Shown: positions 4,085-63,300 of the stretch, one piece after another
How the letters are laid out: every line of letters starts with the position of its first letter
Position numbering within the stretch: position 1 is the stretch's first letter
Assembly: GCA_963575745.1 (NCBI GenBank)
Contig: CAUYUJ010016366.1
Coordinates: 161,001 to 225,000 of the forward strand
Source of the DNA: Prorocentrum cordatum
Lineage: Eukaryota; Sar; Dinophyceae; Prorocentrales; Prorocentraceae
Reading direction: 5' to 3'
DNA: 64,000 nt
Position numbers and translations under genes: made by a program
Notes under the pieces: generated by a model
What the model saw: the letters and a program-made list of their open reading frames with translations, nothing else
Databases searched by the model: none
Told to the model about the DNA's origin: nothing

Positions 4085-4230
4085 TTTAGTTGAAATAACG
4101 GTAGATGGCCTTCGGGGGGGGCCTCTTCGCTACGGCTGGACGCAGCTCGGGAAATTGGTGCGTTTGGACGCCAAGAAGGGCTCGGGGATAGATCTTGAGT
4201 TGCCGTTGTCTCAATTTGCTCTGCTCCGAT
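4085..4230 (+). mobile_element. Family C-like element, plus copy
   Basis: Shares a colinear block (TTGAAATAACGGTAGATGG, CTACGGCTGGACGCAGCTCG, AATTGGTGCGTTTGGA, GAGTTGCCGT) with the reverse complement of 21495-21630, and more weakly with the introner at 32151-32317 through the GTCGCCACGGCTGGA-like core. Confidence 0.65.
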
Positions 4231-21495: not shown

Positions 21496-21630
21496 CTGGG
21501 ACGGCAGCTCAAAATTGGTCCGTGGGCCCCTCCCAGGGTCCAAGCGCACCAGTTTTCCAAGCTGCGTCCAGCCGTGGCGACGAGGCGTCCCCACGAAGGA
21601 CCACTACCGTTGTCTCAACTTGCCCTCCTG
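21496..21630 (-). mobile_element. Family C-like element, reverse copy
   Basis: Reverse complement is colinear with 4085-4230 (GGCTGGACGCAGCTTGGAAA, CTGGTGCGCTTGGA, TGAGCTGCCGTC). Confidence 0.65.
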
Positions 21631-23314: not shown

Positions 23315-23514
23315 TCGGGCCGAACGAAAGGGGGGGATAGGGAAGAGGGGGGGGTTACGAAATCTGCTGCGTGCAGCTGGTTGCGGCCCCGCCGCCGGGG
23401 CCCGTTCCTCGATACATGGGCGCCTCGCGGCGCGGGGAGGCGCCGGGAAAAGCAGCTGCGTGAGCCGATTCTCTGCGCTGCCCTTTGCTGATCCCCCCCT
23501 TTCGTTCCCCCCGA
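23315..23514 (+). mobile_element. Family A introner, copy outside a recognised gene
   Basis: Ends TCGGGCCGAACGAAAGGGGG and CCCCCTTTCGTTCCCCCCGA are inverted repeats; the interior (TTACGAAATCTGCTGCGTGC, CGATACATGGGCGCCTC) is colinear with the TPPP intron-1 element at 30870-31064 and the copy at 34178-34371. A partial duplication of its right end follows (23545-23600). Confidence 0.85.
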
Positions 23515-24254: not shown

Positions 24255-24405
24255 GATTTTCGGAAGAGGAAGAGGTGCCAACATCGCTGCATTGGGGCAT
24301 CCTTGGAGGCCCGCGTCGCCACGGACGGACTCGCTTCGGGATTCTGGTCAGAACGCACACTGGGAGAGGTCCGGGGAGTAGCGGTACAGTCGGCACGGAT
24401 TAGTA
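24255..24405 (+). mobile_element. Family C element copy
   Basis: Colinear with the TPPP intron-3 introner: GAAGAGGAAGAGGTGCCAAC at the left, TTCTGGTCAGAACGCAC in the middle, GGAGTAGCGGTACAGTCGGC at the right. Confidence 0.75.
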
Positions 24406-24639
24406 GGTCGACCCTGCCAAGTCAAGGGTACCCTTGTGCCTTGTGTCTCGCGACCCATGCCTCCTGCATTCCTGTGGCAGTGTGCCCCTCGGAAAGGGTC
24501 TCTTGTCCTCTCGCGTGTCCTCTCCAATCAAGTCCGACTGTATTGGTACCTGTTGGTTTCCCCAGGGGTGGCCGCGTGTGGCACTCCAGACCCAGACCTT
24601 CAAGCTGCATCTCGAAGAAGAAGAAGAACGTCGTTGCGC

Positions 24640-30833: not shown

Positions 30834-32928
30834 ATGTCGACGGAGCTGGAGCAGGTGTTCGCGGCCTTCTCGGGCCGGGCGAAAGGGGGGGACTGGGAAA
30901 GGGGGGGTTACGAAATTTGCTGCATGCAGCTGGTTTCGGCCTCGCCGAGGGGCCCATTCCTCGATACATAGCCGCCTCTGGCGCCGGGAGGCGCCGGGAA
31001 AATCAGCTACGTGAGCTGATTCTCAAACCCCCCCTTTGCTATCCCCCCCTTTCGCCCGACCCGACCTTCTGCGGGAAAGAAAAGGACATGGACGGCAAAA
31101 CCTTTATCAAACTGTGCAAGGACTGTAAGCTTGTGGACAAGAAGCTCACAGCCACGGACGTGGACCTGATCTTTGCCAAAGTCGCGCCGAAGGGCCAGCG
31201 CCGCATCAGTTTCGAGCAATTCGGCACAGCTTTGGAACATCTGGCCACGAAGAAGGGGACGTCTCCAGAGGATGTGAAGTCTTCGATCACGCAATCATCA
31301 GGACCAACGCTCAGTGGAACGCAGGCCGACGCAGTGCGCTTCCACGATGACAAGTCCACCTACACGGGGACGCACGTCAACGGCGGGCCCGACCGCGTGG
31401 CCAAGGGCACCGGCACCGCGACGCAGCTCGCTTCGTCCGGCATGGGCACAGGCCACAGCGGCAGCCACCCGGAGCCACGCCTCGCGGAGCCACGCCTCTC
31501 GGAGCCACGCCACTCGGAACCGCGCCACTCGCAGCCCGGGTCTGCGGCGGGGGCGTGCGGCGGAGCCCGGGTGTTGCCAGAGGAGTGCCCCGGGCCCGAG
31601 CTGCCCCCGGGAGTTCCAAGGAGGCGCCCACGGGCCCCAGTCGGGGGCGGACAGAACCCCCAACAGTGACACGTCGATTAGTGACTTGTCCGTGTTCGGT
31701 TCTCGAGGGGGCGCCGCGGCCGTTCTTTTCCAGGCTTGCGCCCGCCAGGAGTGGGCCTCGGGTCGTTTGCACGAAACCACGTTTTACGAAAGGGGGGTCG
31801 GTCCATCCCCGATCCAGAGCACCCACGGCGAGGCCCAGATGGCCCCAGAGGTTCCAGGATGGAGCGACAAGCCGGGGGCACCTTGGGCCAGGAGCACCTC
31901 TGGCAACCCCCGGGGAGAGCGGGTCGTGAAAATTCCGGCAGAAGTCTTCGACGGCATCTGCCAGCAGCTGCGGACCAGCGAGCTCCTCGGGCCACCCGCG
32001 GCCCAGGCCTTGGAGAAGGCCGCCGGCGTGAAGGGTGCGCCGTCGTCGCCGCCGCCAGGGGCGAAGGCGACGGAGCTGCGGACCAAGGTGGCCGACTCTC
32101 GAGAGGACCTCGAGACGGCTTTGGCGCGAAGCAAGGCGGAGGTTGAGGAGCTCAGAGGAGGAAAAGGTACCATACCGCTACCCTTCGCTCGTTTTCCCCT
32201 TTTTGGGCCTCCTGGGAGGCCCTCGTCGCCACCGCTGGATTCGCCTCGAAATTCTGGTCAGAACGCACCCCGGCGGAGGTTCAGGGAGTAGCGGTATCGG
32301 TACCTTTTGCTCTCCCCAGGAGCTGCGGAAAGTTGTGGCGCAGAAGGACGAGGTCATCGCCCAGCTGAAGCGTGACGCCGGGAAGAGCTCGACCACACCA
32401 GCTGCATCGCCCAAGCCTGAGGGCGAAGCCGCCGCCGCGAAAGCGCCGTCCAAGGGTCCCGCTACCACGCCGCCATCCCATGGCCCAGCGGCTGCGGCGG
32501 CCGCTGCGACTTCCTTGCAGGACGCCTTCTCGAACTTCGCCGACGGAAAGCCAGATATGGACCAGAAGTCGTTCGTCAAGCTGTGCAAGGACGTGAAGCT
32601 TGTGGACAAGAGTTTCACCACCACGGACGCAGACCTTATCTTCACAAAAGTCGTGACGAAGGGCCAACGCAGGATCGATTTCGGCCATTTCAGCGCCGCC
32701 TTGGACCAGGTCGCGGCGAAGAAGGGCACCAGCGCAGAGGCCATCCGTGACGCGATCTGCAGCGCAGGGGGTCCGACGCTGAACGGCACGGTCGCCGACC
32801 ACGTGAAATTCCACGACGACAAGTCCACCTACACAGGGACGCACGTCAATGGTGGCCCCGAGTCAGTGCGTAAAGGTGGCGGCACAGCAACGCAGCTCGC
32901 CTCGGGCGGTATGGCCTCAGGCCATTAG
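30834..32928 (+). CDS. Tubulin polymerization-promoting (TPPP/p25-alpha) protein with two p25-alpha domains
   Basis: Proposed exons are 30834-30878, 31085-31639, 31818-32147 and 32320-32928, about 512 residues. Domain 1 (STELEQVFAAF, then DMDGKTFIKLCKDCKLVDKK, RRISFEQF, FHDDKSTYTGTHVNGG, TATQLASSGMGTGH) and domain 2 (LQDAFSNFADG, MDQKSFVKLCKDVKLVDK, RRIDFGHF, FHDDKSTYTGTHVNGG, TATQLASGGMASGH) each carry the p25-alpha signature from start to end. The linker has a Pro/Arg-rich repeat (31495-31545), a helical block and a coiled coil (about SREDLETALARSKAEVEELR onwards). The family binds and bundles microtubules and occurs in ciliated eukaryotes; most members have one domain, so the tandem form is unusual. 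Introns: 1 GC-AG, exact junction uncertain (30874-31079 is equally frame-compatible); 2 GT-AG, phase 0; 3 GA-AG, phase 0. All three hold mobile elements. ATG 30834 is the first after the spliced-leader relic. Confidence 0.85.
30870..31064 (+). mobile_element. Family A introner forming TPPP intron 1 (TSD CCTTC)
   Basis: 195 bp with inverted ends TCGGGCCGGGCGAAAGGGGG / CCCCCTTTCGCCCGACCCGA and perfect 5-bp duplications CCTTC at 30865-30869 and 31065-31069. Without the element the exon would read AAFCGKEKDMDG, which fits the p25-alpha family. Sister copies: 23315-23514, 34178-34371. Confidence 0.92.
31641..31812 (+). mobile_element. Family B introner in TPPP intron 2
   Basis: 172 bp, TCGGGGGCGGACAGAACCCC to CGGTCCATCCCCGA, flanked by CCCAG (31636-31640) and TCCAG (31813-31817). 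Colinear with 1521-1692 of identical length. The GT donor at 31640 and the AG acceptor at 31816-31817 lie in the duplicated bases. Confidence 0.9.
32151..32317 (+). mobile_element. Family C introner forming TPPP intron 3 (TSD AGGAG)
   Basis: 167 bp with inverted GGTACCATACCGCTAC / GTAGCGGTATCGGTACC near its ends and perfect AGGAG duplications (32146-32150, 32318-32322). Splicing AG|GA at 32147/32148 to AG|GAG at 32319/32320 removes exactly element plus duplication (172 nt) and restores VEELRK. The canonical-looking GT at 32167 would break the frame. Confidence 0.9.
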
Positions 32929-34177: not shown

Positions 34178-34371
34178 TCGGGCCGAACGCAAGGGGGGGA
34201 TAGGGAAAGGGGGGTTACGAAATTTGCTGCGTGCAGCTGGTTTCGGCCCCACCGAGGGGCCCATTCCTCGATACATAGCCGCCTCCGGCGCCGAGAGGCG
34301 CCGGGAAAATCCGCTACGTGAGCTGATGTTCAACCCCCCCCTTTGCTATCCCCCCCTTTCGCCCGACCCGA
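34178..34371 (+). mobile_element. Family A introner, copy 3 (TSD GAGGA)
   Basis: 194 bp; ends TCGGGCCGAACGCAAGGGG and TTTCGCCCGACCCGA; duplications GAGGA at 34173-34177 and 34372-34376. The flanks are GGA-rich, so the duplication is weaker evidence here. It may interrupt an exon: an open frame from 34372 to 34669 ends EAQRTLVELVQQNLA, but no upstream exon was identified. Confidence 0.85.
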
Positions 34372-36254: not shown

Positions 36255-36420
36255 GCCATTAGTAGGAGAGGACCAAGGACCGATGTTCGGTCTTCGAGGT
36301 TTTTTATCGCGTTTGGTCTTCCCTGTTGGGCCTCCAGGGTGCCTCTTACAGCCACGGCTGGATTCGCTACGACGTCCTCGCCGAGGTGCGCGCCTCCTGA
36401 CAGGCGCGCCCTCGCCACCG
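36255..36420 (+). mobile_element. Family C element, truncated or diverged copy
   Basis: GTTGGGCCTCCAGGGTGCC, then CAGCCACGGCTGGATTCGCT and ACGACGTCCTCGCC follow the family C core order; the right end is not recognisable. Confidence 0.55.
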
Positions 36421-56399: not shown

Positions 56400-57247
56400 C
56401 GGAATGATTCTCGCGTGGGTTCAAAATAACCGCGAAAGGTCTGCAGAACCCCCCCAAACAGTGGAAACTGATTATCGCTTCGACGCCCTTATTGACGGAC
56501 TGGGGCCCCATCAATAGCAGAAAATAATGATTCACCCGCGGCGCCCGCCGCGCAACAACGACGGCGGCGACTACGAGTACGATTGCGACGGCGGAGGAGG
56601 AGGAGAAGGGGGAGGAGGAAGAAGACGAGGAGCAGGAGGAGAGGAGCAGGAGCAGGAGGAAGAGAAGGGACGAGTTTTATCCCCCGCCTATAAAAACAGG
56701 GGGGGAGGAGCAAAACTAAGGACCTTCCACGGTTAAGGAGGGGATTTTCAAGGGAAGAAGCGCTCCCGATCGCCGAACGGATTAGATTCGCGTACGACGG
56801 GAAGCGCGAAGCGAACCTTGTTTGGATTTCAATGAAAGACAAAGATTCTGACAGGTGGGCCGATCGCCGAGCCAAAAACCTGTGAGTGTATTCCAACAAC
56901 GGGCGGTTCGCGTGAGATGCAGTCTCAAAATCGGTACTTCGAAGGAGCGGTTGAAAATATTGTGGTTAGCCCTGTTGGAGGCCCAGTGCCACTCTTATGG
57001 AAACGCTCCTCTTCCTACTCGTTCTCCTCCTCCTCCTTCTCCTCCTCGTCCTCCTCGTCCTCCTCGTCAGCCTCGGAGTCGCCATCGGAGTCGCCCTTGG
57101 TCTTCGAGTTGTGCACCAGACTCGCCGTGGAGCGCGCTCTGGCCAGGATCTCTGGGCGAATCCAGCCGTGTGGTGACCAGCTCCCCCCCTAGGAGACCCC
57201 ACTTGGCGAAAGGCATCAAAATGCCTCCCCCATCTTCATCTTCCTCC
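56400..57247 (+). other. Upstream region of the large repeat/coiled-coil gene
   Basis: GGA-rich tract at 56594-56670 and TCC-rich tract at 57005-57070. The reading frame of the gene below is open back to 56855, and an in-frame ATG exists at 57221, so an N-terminal extension is possible. Confidence 0.4.
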
Positions 57248-57269
57248 TCCGAATCCGTTTTGGCTCAAG
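57248..57269 (+). other. Relic spliced leader upstream of the large gene
   Basis: The 22 nt match the DinoSL consensus at 19 positions; the last 13 (TTTTGGCTCAAG with the base before it differing) are essentially intact, differences being T5A, G7T and A10G. The next ATG downstream is 57329, in the frame of the 2-kb-residue protein. Confidence 0.72.
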
Positions 57270-57328
57270 GCTCGAGCGGCTGCAGAAGTATCGTTTTGCT
57301 TCTTACGACGAGGTGGCCGCCTAGAGAA

Positions 57329-60300
57329 ATGCTTGGGCGGTTGAGCAGCATGTTGATGCCAAGGAGCTCGCCGGACACGAGGGGGGTGTCGGAGGAGCTA
57401 CCCGTACCCGGTGCCTACGCGCAGCCGTTCGGGCAGATGCCGTCGAGCAGCCCGGTGCTCGAGATGCCGGTTCCGCAGCAGCAGCAACAAGTGTTCGCAA
57501 CGCAGCTCGAGCCTGTGGGACAGGTGCCTTCCAGCGGGTCACGCAGCCCGGCGTTACCGCAGGCAGCGACCGAGCTACCGCCGTTCATGCAGTACCCGAG
57601 CAGCGCCACGACGCTTCCGCCAGCCAGCCACCTGGGTCTGCCGCCAGAGGGGCCCCAGCAGCAGGCCGCCCGTGGCGCCCACCCCGACGCGGCCCGCGAC
57701 GACCCGACGGTGCCCGGCAGCTTCAGCCCCTCGCTGCCCGTAGGCACGGCGCAGCACGGCTCCACGCTGCCCCCGGGTGCCGAGCACTGCCCGCCGCGCA
57801 CTTCCCCCGCGGGGCTCGGGGAGCCGCCGCGCGCGGGCGCGAGCCAGGCGCCCCAGCCAGACGGCCGGCCGTGGAGCCCGAGCAGCGCCCCCGCGCTGCC
57901 CCCGCGCGCTGCCGGCGACCCGCCCCTGCTGCCCGTGCCGCCTGGCGGGCCGGACGGCTCGAGGCACCGGGCGGGCTTGGGCGACCCGCTGTCGGCCCCG
58001 CCGCGGTTCCCCGGGGGGCCCTCGGCGCCGCCAGGCTCTCTGCTGGAGCCCCAGCGGTTCCTGCTCTCGGCGCCGCCGCACCACGCCCGCCTCGACTGCG
58101 ACCTTGGGGACCAGATCGGGCTGCGGACCGTGGAGCAGACGCTGCCGCCCCGCCCCGCCGAAGAGCTGCCCCGCACGGAGGACCAGCTCGGGCCCAGCGC
58201 CACGGAACGGCCAACGCCGCGTACTGCAGGGCAGTGGTCGCCGCCCTCGGCCGGCGCCGCCGAGCAGCTGCTTCCTGGCTCCATGGACCAGCTGCCGCCA
58301 CGTACGTCCGAGCTGTTGCCGCCGCGGACCTTGGAGCAGCTCCCGCCGCGAACCGCCGAGCAGATCCCACCGCGCACCCCCGAGCAGCCGCCGAGGCGCG
58401 CCGACGAGCAGATGTGGCCCCGCACCGCTGAGCAGCTACTCCCTGGATCGATGGACCAGCTGGCGCCGCGCACCCCCGAGCAGCTAGAGCCGCGCACGGA
58501 GGAACACATGTGGCGGCCTGCCGAGCAGCAACTACCCGAACCAGTTGGTTCGGGCCCCCCCCGCTCCCTGGACTACCTGCCACCGTTTACAGCGGAGACA
58601 CCGCCCCGCTCCATGGACCAGCTGCCGCCGCGAACAGCGGAGTCGATGCCTCCGCGCACGGCCGAGCAGCTGCTTCCCCGGTCCATGGACCAGCTGCCGC
58701 CGCGGACGGCAGAGTCGATGCCTCCGCGCACGGCCGAGCAGCTGCTTCCCCGGTCCATGGACCAGTTGCCGCCGCAGACGGCGGAGTCGATGCCTCCGCG
58801 CACGGCCGAGCAGCTGCTTCCCAGGTCCATGGAACAGTTGCCCCCACGAACGGCAGAATCGATGCCTCCGCGCACGGACGAGCAGCTGCTTCCCAGGACC
58901 ATGGACCCGCTGACGCCGCGAACAGCGGAGTCGATGCCTCCGCGCACGGCCGAGCAGCTGCTTCCCCGGTCCATGGACCAGCTGCCGCCGCGGACGGCGG
59001 AGTCGATGCCTCCGCGCACGGCCGAGCAGCTGCTTCCCACGTCCATGGAACAGCTGCCCCCGCGGACGGCAGAATCGATGCCTCCGCGCACGGCCGAGCA
59101 GCTGCTTCCCAGGTCCATGGACCAGTTGCCGCCGCGAACAGCGGAGTCGATGTCTCCGAGAACGGCTGAGCAGCTGCTTCCCCAGTCCATGGACCAGCTG
59201 CCGCCGCAGACGGCGGAGTCGATGCCTCCGCGTACCGCCGAGCAGGTGCTTCCCAGGACCATGGACCCGCTGCCCCCGCGAACGGCGGAGTCGATGCCGC
59301 CGCGTACTGGCGAGCAGCTGTCTACCAGTACAATGGACCAAGTCCCCCCGCGAACAGCGGAGTCGATGCCTCCGCGCACCGCAGAGCAGTTCACACCTAG
59401 CAATCAGCGTGTTTATACGATGCCGCTCAGCGCCGAGCAGGTGTTTGCTGGCTCCGCCGAGCAGCTGCCTGGACCAGCTGGCGTGGGCCATCCCCGTTCC
59501 CTGGACTACCTGCCGTCGCCTACAGCGGAGACACCGCCCCGGTCCACGGACCAGCTACCACAGCGGACGGCGGAGTCGTTGCCTCCGCGCACCCCCGAGC
59601 AGCTAGAGCCGCAGACGGCGGAGTCGATGCCTCCGCGAATGGCCGATCAGCTGCTTCCCAGGTTCATGGACCAGCTGCCGCCGCGAACGGCGCAGTCGAT
59701 GCCTCCGCGCACGGCCGAGCAGCTGCTTCCCCAGTCCATGGACCAGCTGCCACCGCAGACGGCGCAGTCGATGCCTCTGCGCACGGCCGAGCAGCTGCTT
59801 CCCCAGTCCATGGACCAGCTGCCACCGCAGACGGCGGAGTCGATGCCTCCGCGTACCGCCGAGCAGGTGCTTCCCAGGACTATGGACCCGCTGCCCCCGC
59901 GAACGGCGGAGTCGATGCCGCCGCGTACTGGCGAGCAGCTGTCTCCCAATACAATGGGCCAAGTCCCCCCGCGAACAGCGGAGTCGATGCCTCCGCACAC
60001 CGCAGAGCAGTTCACACCTAGCAATCAGCGTGTTTATACGATGCCGCCCAGCGCCGAGCAGGTGTTTGCTGGCTCCGCCGAGGAGCTGCCTGGACCAGCT
60101 GGCGTGGGCCATCCCCGTTCCCTGGACTACCTGCCGTCGCCTACAGCGGAGACACCGCCCCGGTCCACGGACCAGCTACCACAGCGGACGGCGGAGTCGT
60201 TGCCTCCGCGCACCCCCGAGCAGCTAGAGCCGCAGACGGCGCAGTCGATGCCTCCGCGCACGGCCGAGCAGCTGCTTCCCCGCTCCATGGACCAGTTGCC

Positions 60301-63300
60301 GCCGCGAACGGCGGAGTCGATGCCTCCGCGCACGGCCGAGCAGCTGCTTCCCAGGTCCATGGACCAGTCACCGCCGCGGACGGCGGAGTCGATGCCTCCG
60401 CGCACGGCCGAGCAGCGGCTTTCCCAGTTCATGGACCAGTTGCCGCCGCAGACGGCGGAGGAGCCGATGCCTCCGCGCACGGCCGAGCAGCTGCTTCCCC
60501 GGTCCATGAACCAGCTGCCGCCGCAGACGGCGCAGTCGATGCCTCCGCGCACGGCCGAGCAGCTGCTTCCCCAGTCCATGGACCAGCCACCGCCGCGGAC
60601 GGCGGAGTCGATGCCTCCGCGAACGGCCGAGCAGCGGCTTCCCCAGTTCATGGACCAGTTGCCGCCGCAGACGACGGAGGAGCCGATGCCTCCGCGCACG
60701 GCCGAGCAGCTGCTTCCCCGCTCCATGAACCAGCTGCCGCCGCAGACGGCGGAGTCGATGCCTCCGCGCACGTCCGAGCAGCTGCTTCCCCGCTCCATGG
60801 ACCAGCTGCCGCCGCGGACGGCGGAGTCGATGTCTCCGCGAACGGCCGAGCAGCTGCTTCCCCGCTCCATGGACCAGCTGCCGCCGCGGACGGTGGAGTC
60901 GATGCCTCCGCGTTCGGCCGAGCAGCTGCTGCTGCCTGGCGCCGCGGCGGTGCCCGCGGTTGGAGAGCTGTCGCCTGCCGACCAGGAGCAGCTCAGCTAC
61001 GAGGGCGGGCCCTACTCGATGCCCTACTACGAGAGCGGGGCCTCCTTGATGGCGCAGCAGCAGTACGCTGCCCAGATCACGGAGCTCGAGGCCCTGGCCA
61101 CGGAGTACGTGCAGCGCAACCACGACCTCGAGTCTGTGCTAGCGTCCATGAAGTCGGCCGAGGAGAAGCAGCTGGAAGAGATCGAGGTGCTGAGATCGAG
61201 GCTGCTGCTGGCGGATCACGCGGGCCCCCATGACCCGGAGTCGTCCAAGGACGAGGCCGATCGCCAGCTGAGGATCGACGAGTTGGAGGGCCGTTCTGCA
61301 GAGATGCAGCTGGCGCTGGAAGGCGCCGCCGTTGCCGCGGAACGGCAGAACGTGATACAGCAGGACCTGGAGAAATTGCTCGAGGAGAGTGAGGCCTCGA
61401 ATCGTGCACTGGAGATGGAGGTAGAGCAACTGAGGCACGCGGCCAGCAGTGCCGCCGAGGCCGAGAGAGCCCAGCGCGAGGCGGCCGCCGCAGAGGCCAG
61501 CGGCCTGCGCATCGAGGCCCTGGAAGAGGAGCAGCATGCCATGAAGCTGGCCCAGTCCGAGCTCGTCGAGCGTGCGGACCTTCTTGCCAGTCGGAACTCG
61601 CAGCTGGAGGCGGAGATCCTGGCCCTCAAGCAGGAGCACGTCCACGTCGCGGACCTCGAAGAGGAGGCCCGGGCCGCGGCGGACGAGCAGGGCTCCCGCG
61701 CGGCGCGGCTGGAGAAGGAGCTCGACGCCGTCAAGCTCGACGCGGAGGTCCAGGCGGTGGAGGCCCGCGCCGTCGCCGAGGAGCACCTGAGGCGCAGCGC
61801 GGAGCTGGAGGAGCTGCTGAGGGTGCAGGCCGTGGAGGTGGAGCTCCTGAGGCAGGAGCGCGCGCAGGCGTTCGAGCACCAGGAGGAGGCCCAGTCGATC
61901 GCCGAGCAGTCCGCTGGGCGCAGCCGCGAGCTGGAGGCCGAGGCCATGGGTCTCCGAGAGGAGCGCGACCGCGCGCTCGCCGCGGAGAGCGAGGCCGTAC
62001 GCCTGGGGGAGCAGCAGGCGCGCAGGCTCCAGGAGCTGGAGGCGCAGGCGGAGGCGGAGGGCCAGGGCCGGGCGCGCGCGCAGCAGCTGGAGGGCGAGGT
62101 GCGCGCCCTGCACGAGGAGCGCGGGCGCTGGGCGGAGGCAGAGGCGGAGGCCAGGTCCGCCAAGGAGGGGCACGCGAGCCAGATGTCGGCGCTGGAGGCT
62201 GCCCTGGCGGACGTGGACAGCGGGCGGCAGCAGGGCCTGGCGCACATCGCGGAGTTGGAGCGGGTGCTGGCGGAGGCGGGCCAGCGCAACGAGGAGCTGG
62301 AGGCGAGGCTGGCTGCCCAGCAGGGGGACCAGGAGCTGCTGGCCCGCGGGGCAAAGCGGATCGAGGAGCTGGAGGCGCAGGTGGCGAAGGACCGGCAGTG
62401 CAAGCAGGAGTTTGAAGAGTTGCTGGCCCGCGGGGCGGCGCGGATCGAGGAGCTGGAGGGGCAGGTGGCGCAGGGCCAGCAATGCAAGCAGGAGCTCGAG
62501 AAGGAAGTTGCGCAGCGAGAGAGGCGCAGCCAGGAGCTCGAGGGCCTGCTCGGGGCTGCGGAGGACAGGGGGCGGCAGCTGGACGATCTGGCAGAGGAGG
62601 GGCTGACCCGCACCCGCGAGCTGGAGCGCCTGCTCGTGCAGCGAGGCGAGGAGCTGGAGGAGCTCCGGGCGATGGCGGCCGCGCGCGCGGAGGAGCTCAA
62701 AGAGCAGGTCGGCCATGCGCGGCAGGAGCAGTCGGGGCACCTGCAGCTCGAGCTGGACAAGCTGGCCATCGAGCACTCCCGGCGCTCGAAGGAGCTGGAG
62801 GACCAGGTGTCGATACACGTGAGGCGCACCTCGGAGTTGGAGGCCGAGCTCAGGAGGTCGAGGCAGACCGAGGAGGATCAGCTCGCGCGCATCGCGCAGC
62901 TGGAGCAGGCGATCGGCAGCCAGGACGCCAGGCAGGCCAGGCAGCTGGCCGAGTTCTCCGCGGTCTCCCAGCAGATGAGTGAGCTGGAGGAGGTGATCGG
63001 CAAGGTGCGGCGGATGGAGCGAGACCTCGCCAGCCAAAACACCACGGTCGTCGAAGAAGAAACAGCGGCGTAAGCATGAACTGTCGGGGCCCAGAGGGGG
63101 CCCGCGATTTCTTGGATCGGCGTTGGGTCTTGGGGAGGCCAAGCGCCGATCCAAGAAATCCGCGCGGAATTGAGCCATTCCGCCCACCTCCAGAAGGAGT
63201 GAGTGCCTGCCAAGATCGTGGAGTGTATCTTGTCGGATGCATAAGATAAGACGGTCTCTTAAGAGACCGTCGTATCTTATGCATCCGGAGAAGCACCCGA

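Follow-up and report, generated by a model that had tools for sequence, protein, structure and literature searches.

The window, a 64,000-nt stretch of Prorocentrum cordatum DNA, carries a gene with two p25-alpha (TPPP) domains (PF05517, E 1.4e-36 and 2.2e-33) and a coiled-coil-like stretch between them. Three inserts lie in this gene: a short introner-like element in the coil, and two sister inserts, E1 and E2 (Table 1). The left end of the upstream coil exon depends on the intron across E2.

Table 1. Features of the TPPP gene and of a related element copy, in window positions
Feature	Position	Strand	Basis
Second copy of the element's family, with internal insert	~24261..24567	+	ends set by eye
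E1, second insert in the TPPP gene, of a different family, with CCTTC(T) on either side at a spacing of 200 nt	30870..31064	+	
First p25-alpha (TPPP) domain and linker	31088..31564	+	matches public P. cordatum protein P0042
E2, third insert, with long inverted repeats and GGAG on either side at a spacing of 352 nt	31566..31914	+	
Upstream exon, coiled-coil-like part (RVVKIPAEVF...SKAEVE)	31920..32147	+	frame, tblastn with P0001
Alternative GT-AG intron of 178 nt, in frame, which would cost residues VE	32142..32319	+	in-frame pair count
Left direct-repeat copy AGGAGCT, likely target duplication	32146..32152	+	repeat search
Exon end AG and GA donor, both predicted	32146-32147 and 32148-32149	+	inside left AGGAGCT copy
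Predicted 172-nt GA-AG intron that would be excised exactly	32148..32319	+	frame, register and pair counts; prediction
Introner-like element, 165 bp	32153..32317	+	boundary presumes 7-bp duplication
Left inverted-repeat arm	32158..32181	+	14-nt block at 93%, 10-nt block at 100%
Right inverted-repeat arm	32288..32312	+	pairs with left arm
Pyrimidine-rich stretch and predicted AG acceptor (CTTTTGCTCTCCCCAG)	32304..32319	+	read from sequence
Right direct-repeat copy AGGAGCT	32318..32324	+	repeat search
Downstream exon: remaining coil, second p25-alpha (TPPP) domain, then stop	32320..32928	+	Pfam, tblastn

A public protein of the locus, P0042 (at NCBI an unnamed product of Prorocentrum cordatum), is identical to window positions 31088-31567 at 159 of 160 residues and stops before the intron predicted at 32148-32319. 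It fits an intron at 31565-31917, after which it reads SGS and stops; were the acceptor placed 2 nt later, at 31919, the reading frame would continue into the coil and on to the second TPPP domain, and for this reason the public gene model was probably cut short by a misplaced acceptor. When 10 of the 59 open frames of at least 260 aa in the window were scanned against Pfam, none had a match at E 0.001. A 2,073-codon open frame at 56852-63073 consists of GC-rich, tandemly repeated sequence and is likewise without a Pfam match.

A protein search (7,995 candidates scored, those sharing the most words) returned 57 homologues, of which 23 were inspected. The comparison across the coil junction is confined to P0001 and P0002, the sole homologues with over 90% query coverage (next best 75%); P0057, aligned weakly in the coil (37% identity, 35% coverage), was left out. 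P0001 is 438 aa long, has the same layout as the host gene and bears the source label 'merc', which we take to be a marine metatranscriptome catalogue. Both P0001 (79% identity over 277 columns) and P0002 (71%) run without a gap through the junction, reading AEVEELRKVVAQKDE, and both keep the residues VE. With P0001 as query, tblastn gave one match on each side of the element, both of which include P0001 residues 239-242: over this overlap the left match reads EELR and the right one QELR, the E and L being encoded by the repeated bases and the left R by bases of the element. As relatives and not transcripts of this gene, P0001 and P0002 show the likely ancestral protein, not the splice made in P. 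cordatum. For P. cordatum sequence across the coil junction, a protein search scoring the coil region only (7,999 candidates scored) returned P0001 alone, and a search with the coil alone gave no match. No P. cordatum cDNA was found, and this was counted, together with the early stop of P0042, against the intron predicted at 32148-32319.

Direct repeat, element and predicted intron

The element lies between two perfect 7-bp copies of AGGAGCT, spaced 172 nt apart, and from each copy it is 5 nt inward to the nearer inverted-repeat arm, equally on both sides. The first-pass annotation had reported AGGAG duplicated around an element of 167 bp. AGGAG is indeed present at 32146-32150 and 32318-32322, at the same spacing, but the match extends to 7 bp; a 5-bp repeat was thus ruled out as the observed unit, and the length of the element has to be corrected to 165 bp. 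As a control for chance, the 50-nt flanks were shuffled in 20,000 trials: in 386 of them a 7-bp direct repeat arose no more than 10 nt from either arm, and in 54 there was one equidistant from both arms. A 5-bp repeat would be weak evidence by the same measure (3,968 trials within 10 nt of the arms, 532 equidistant). Runs of at least 7 at a spacing of 172 were found at 0 of 3,859 junctions nearby, but at 800 of 63,787 over the window as a whole, where long tandem repeats are present.

With inverted repeats at both ends and a likely target-site duplication at its boundaries, the element has two of the marks of an introner. Introners of P. cordatum have been called, after Farhat, by an inverted repeat of 8-20 nt plus a direct repeat of 3-5 nt, at most 30 bases from the intron ends (PMC10666404); the present element falls under this definition, its 7-nt direct repeat containing one of 5.

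Exact removal of 172 nt yields ...ARSKAEVEELRKVVAQKDE... and restores KAEVEELRKVVAQKDE. Eight exact registers allow such a removal, all yielding one identical mRNA, and only 32148-32319 combines a G[T/C/A] donor with AG (TGAG|GAGCTC...CCCCAG|GAG); the other exact register ending in AG, 32151-32322, is CT-AG. When splice pairs were recounted with donors at 32100-32199 and acceptors at 32230-32344, 69 G[T/C/A]-AG pairs proved to be in frame, none of them with a stop; nine are GT-AG, and KAEVEELRKVVAQKDE was kept by a single one of the 69, GA-AG 32148-32319. The first-pass proposal that splicing at AG|GA...AG|GA takes out exactly 172 nt and restores VEELRK is therefore confirmed as to frame, in agreement with the two gap-free relatives, the splice itself being a prediction. 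In Table 2 of PMC10666404, the donors of P. cordatum gene models are 24.7% GT, 51.4% GC and 23.8% GA, and 79.7% of acceptors are AGG; the same text describes introns of the species as enriched in introner elements. Set beside these GA donors and AGG acceptors, the predicted site AG|GA...AG|GA was counted in favour. The element with its flanks is predicted to fold into a long hairpin of the arms, at -82.7 kcal/mol; shuffled sequences average -71.7 (z -2.51), and 1 in 200 of them folds as low.

We consider it likely that an inverted-repeat element entered the TPPP coding sequence with a 7-bp likely target duplication and is removed as the predicted 172-nt GA-AG intron. The frame, the inverted repeats and the absence of a gap in P0001 and P0002 give good support to the view that an insertion, with its target duplication, turned into a GA-AG intron that can be excised exactly, the splice again being predicted. 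A transposase would have made both the insertion and the duplication. The duplication would supply the GA donor (AG|GAGCT), the element's right arm would furnish the pyrimidine tract, and the AG acceptor would have one of two sources, the duplication or the terminus of the element itself. In the RNA the two arms would pair, drawing the splice sites together, and splicing would remove one repeat copy and the element exactly. The locus is a clean case of how a mobile element could turn into an intron with the protein unchanged and with GA rather than GT as donor.

Rival splice sites and the origin of the acceptor

Among the in-frame GT donors that the first-pass annotation had missed, the chief one is GT 32142, an exonic site 6 nt upstream of the exact donor. 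Paired with AG 32319 it is in frame and stop-free, has an acceptor identical to that of the exact intron and stands in the context GGAG|GTTGAG; GT (24.7%) is also about as frequent as GA (23.8%) among the P. cordatum model donors in PMC10666404. Its use would, however, delete two coiled-coil-like residues although exact removal is possible, and these residues, VE, are retained in P0001 and P0002. Because of this retention, and because GA donors are ordinary in P. cordatum, we prefer the exact GA-AG intron and regard the canonical GT-AG intron as improbable. The first-pass annotation had dismissed the GT at 32167, within the element, as obvious but frame-shifting. This holds with acceptor 32319, but not with acceptors 32278, 32284 and 32332, each of which gives an in-frame, stop-free pair, that with 32332 merely adding GG (VEELRGGKVVAQ). 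None of the three lies behind a pyrimidine tract (by eye), and all three pairs add residues absent in P0001 and P0002; with in-frame acceptors that look so poor, GT 32167 was rejected as a donor, and its use seems to us extremely improbable. We judge it very improbable, too, that this copy of the gene is in decay and keeps the insert in its transcript. P0042 does end before the downstream exon, and the downstream frame does run open through the element; yet the three stretches matched by P0001 keep open frames (82%, 73% and 62% identity), and the stop of P0042 is what one would expect if the acceptor was placed 2 nt before an in-frame one.

A closer question concerns the source of the AG within the preferred exact GA-AG intron. 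The element may bring its own AG, in which case the duplication would be GAGCT (5 bp) and give the donor only, the upstream AG reflecting target preference or chance. The second family copy (~24261-24567), 82% identical over 95 nt of the core and recognisable at both ends, likewise ends TTTCCCCAG, so that CCCCAG is the end common to both copies and the AG may belong to the element. Introners of Symbiodinium microadriaticum are also described, in PMC9860276, as carrying their 3' site and taking the 5' site from a 4-bp duplication. Against an element-borne AG stand the perfect repeat, which is 7 bp long and includes the AG, the arms, which are equidistant from both repeat copies when 7 bp are taken, and the size of the family comparison, two copies. 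Weighing these, we give the element-borne AG somewhat less than an even chance; it is a variant of the exact GA-AG intron with the same splice positions, and confidence in the one does not exclude confidence in the other. At the second family copy no clear flanking duplication was found, which was counted against the preferred explanation. The bold first-pass claim that the duplication itself makes both splice sites is thus half supported: the GA donor falls within the repeat on either reading and was very likely supplied by the duplication, the AG may come from the duplication or, as the CCCCAG end of the second copy allows, from the element, and there is a GT-AG rival.

That second copy is the only further one with both ends in the 64-kb window. 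Four weaker matches cover the internal part only, without the element ends: 57128-57220, 36320-36378, 21517-21597 and 4103-4175 (nhmmer, E 9.7e-6 to 0.014), the last of which falls under the nhmmer inclusion threshold. This coverage of the core without ends suggests that the core may derive from an older dispersed repeat. Three nhmmer matches at E 2.9 to 5.8 were discarded as noise, and seven arm-motif matches in viral contigs were taken for chance.

Known introners and the sister inserts

In 2015, Mendez et al. reportedly described dinoflagellate introns in which the same short repeat spans each of the two splice sites and one copy is left in the mRNA; these boundary repeats are said to have been described without a mobile element. 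Such 'identically repeated intron boundary sequences' of dinoflagellates are cited as earlier work by Farhat et al. 2021 (PMC7789003), in whose account the direct repeats of Amoebophrya introners overlap the exon/intron boundaries. The present element resembles those of Amoebophrya in having inverted repeats (8-20 nt there), direct repeats that overlap the boundaries, a predicted hairpin and boundaries beyond GT-AG (many there); it differs in that the Amoebophrya direct repeats are 3-5 nt long and the boundaries there show no clear dinucleotide signature, whereas here 7 bp are repeated and a GA-AG register is available (PMC7789003). Gozashti et al. 2022 (PMC9860276) report introners whose two splice sites come wholly or partly from the duplication or the adjoining exon, including one dinoflagellate family that takes its donor from the duplication. 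Like those introners, the present one is short, bears inverted repeats and has a direct repeat at its boundaries, and most families there leave the mRNA length unchanged; unlike them, it belongs to another species and family, the S. microadriaticum duplication being 4 bp and the acceptor element-borne. The P. cordatum introns of Dougan et al. 2023 (PMC10666404) are from the same species, with GC and GA donors common and introners called by inverted and direct repeats at the intron ends; here, by contrast, the public protein of the locus, P0042, stops before the predicted intron. More generally, Rogers and Bendich 2025 have proposed that direct repeats made by insertion hold the first splice sites (PMC11782384). 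A word search of open-licence papers found none on this particular intron.

The first-pass annotation had read this locus as showing directly how dinoflagellates come by their non-GT donors. One fitting example is what the locus provides; the mechanism is not new, because it is already in print in PMC9860276, PMC7789003 and PMC11782384, and the intron is better described as a good instance of something already known, in which an introner draws a splice site from its own target duplication. Moreover, among the exact registers of E1 and E2 examined, none gives G[T/C/A]-AG; even among the inserts of this one gene, then, exact removal would not be general.

The repeat spacings of both sister inserts fit the needed frame (200 = 2 mod 3 for E1; 352 = 1 mod 3 for E2). 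In the flank shuffles, a repeat like the 5-bp one of E1 was equidistant in 176 of 20,000 trials and present anywhere within 10 nt in 1,439, and the GGAG repeat of E2 is weak evidence (2,273 of 20,000). E1 lies in the first TPPP domain, and its exact excision would restore AAFCGKEKDMDGK, with a 5-residue spacing as in P0001 (by eye). As no exact register of E1 has an AG acceptor, E1 would need either splice sites out of register or a boundary that is not GT/GC/GA-AG; eight in-frame pairs were listed for it, including GC-AG 30874-31079 and 30879-31084. E2 has many in-frame pairs, including GC-AG 31565-31919, and at GA-AG 31563-31917 both sites fall within the GGAG repeat, with one residue lost. 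The GA-AG repeat rule is thus exact for one of the three inserts in the gene and nearly so for a second, E2. With three inserts in one short gene, only one of them with a perfect G[T/C/A]-AG pair at its repeat, the locus offers a small-scale test of the influence that the place of insertion has on splice sites. A wider rule for P. cordatum can be put forward only tentatively, and we think it rather unlikely: insertion into AG|GN would duplicate a ready-made acceptor and donor, the mix of GT, GC and GA donors would be a readout of the target bases, and inserts in other targets, such as E1, would have to be spliced a few bases out of register, with a changed protein as the result.

No clear flanking duplication was found at the E1-family copy 23315-23514, and another at 34178-34371 has its own repeat, GAGGA, on both sides. 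A 174-bp repeat, 90% identical, occurs at 31640-31813, inside E2, and at 1520-1693, near the start of the window, as if E2 were itself composite.
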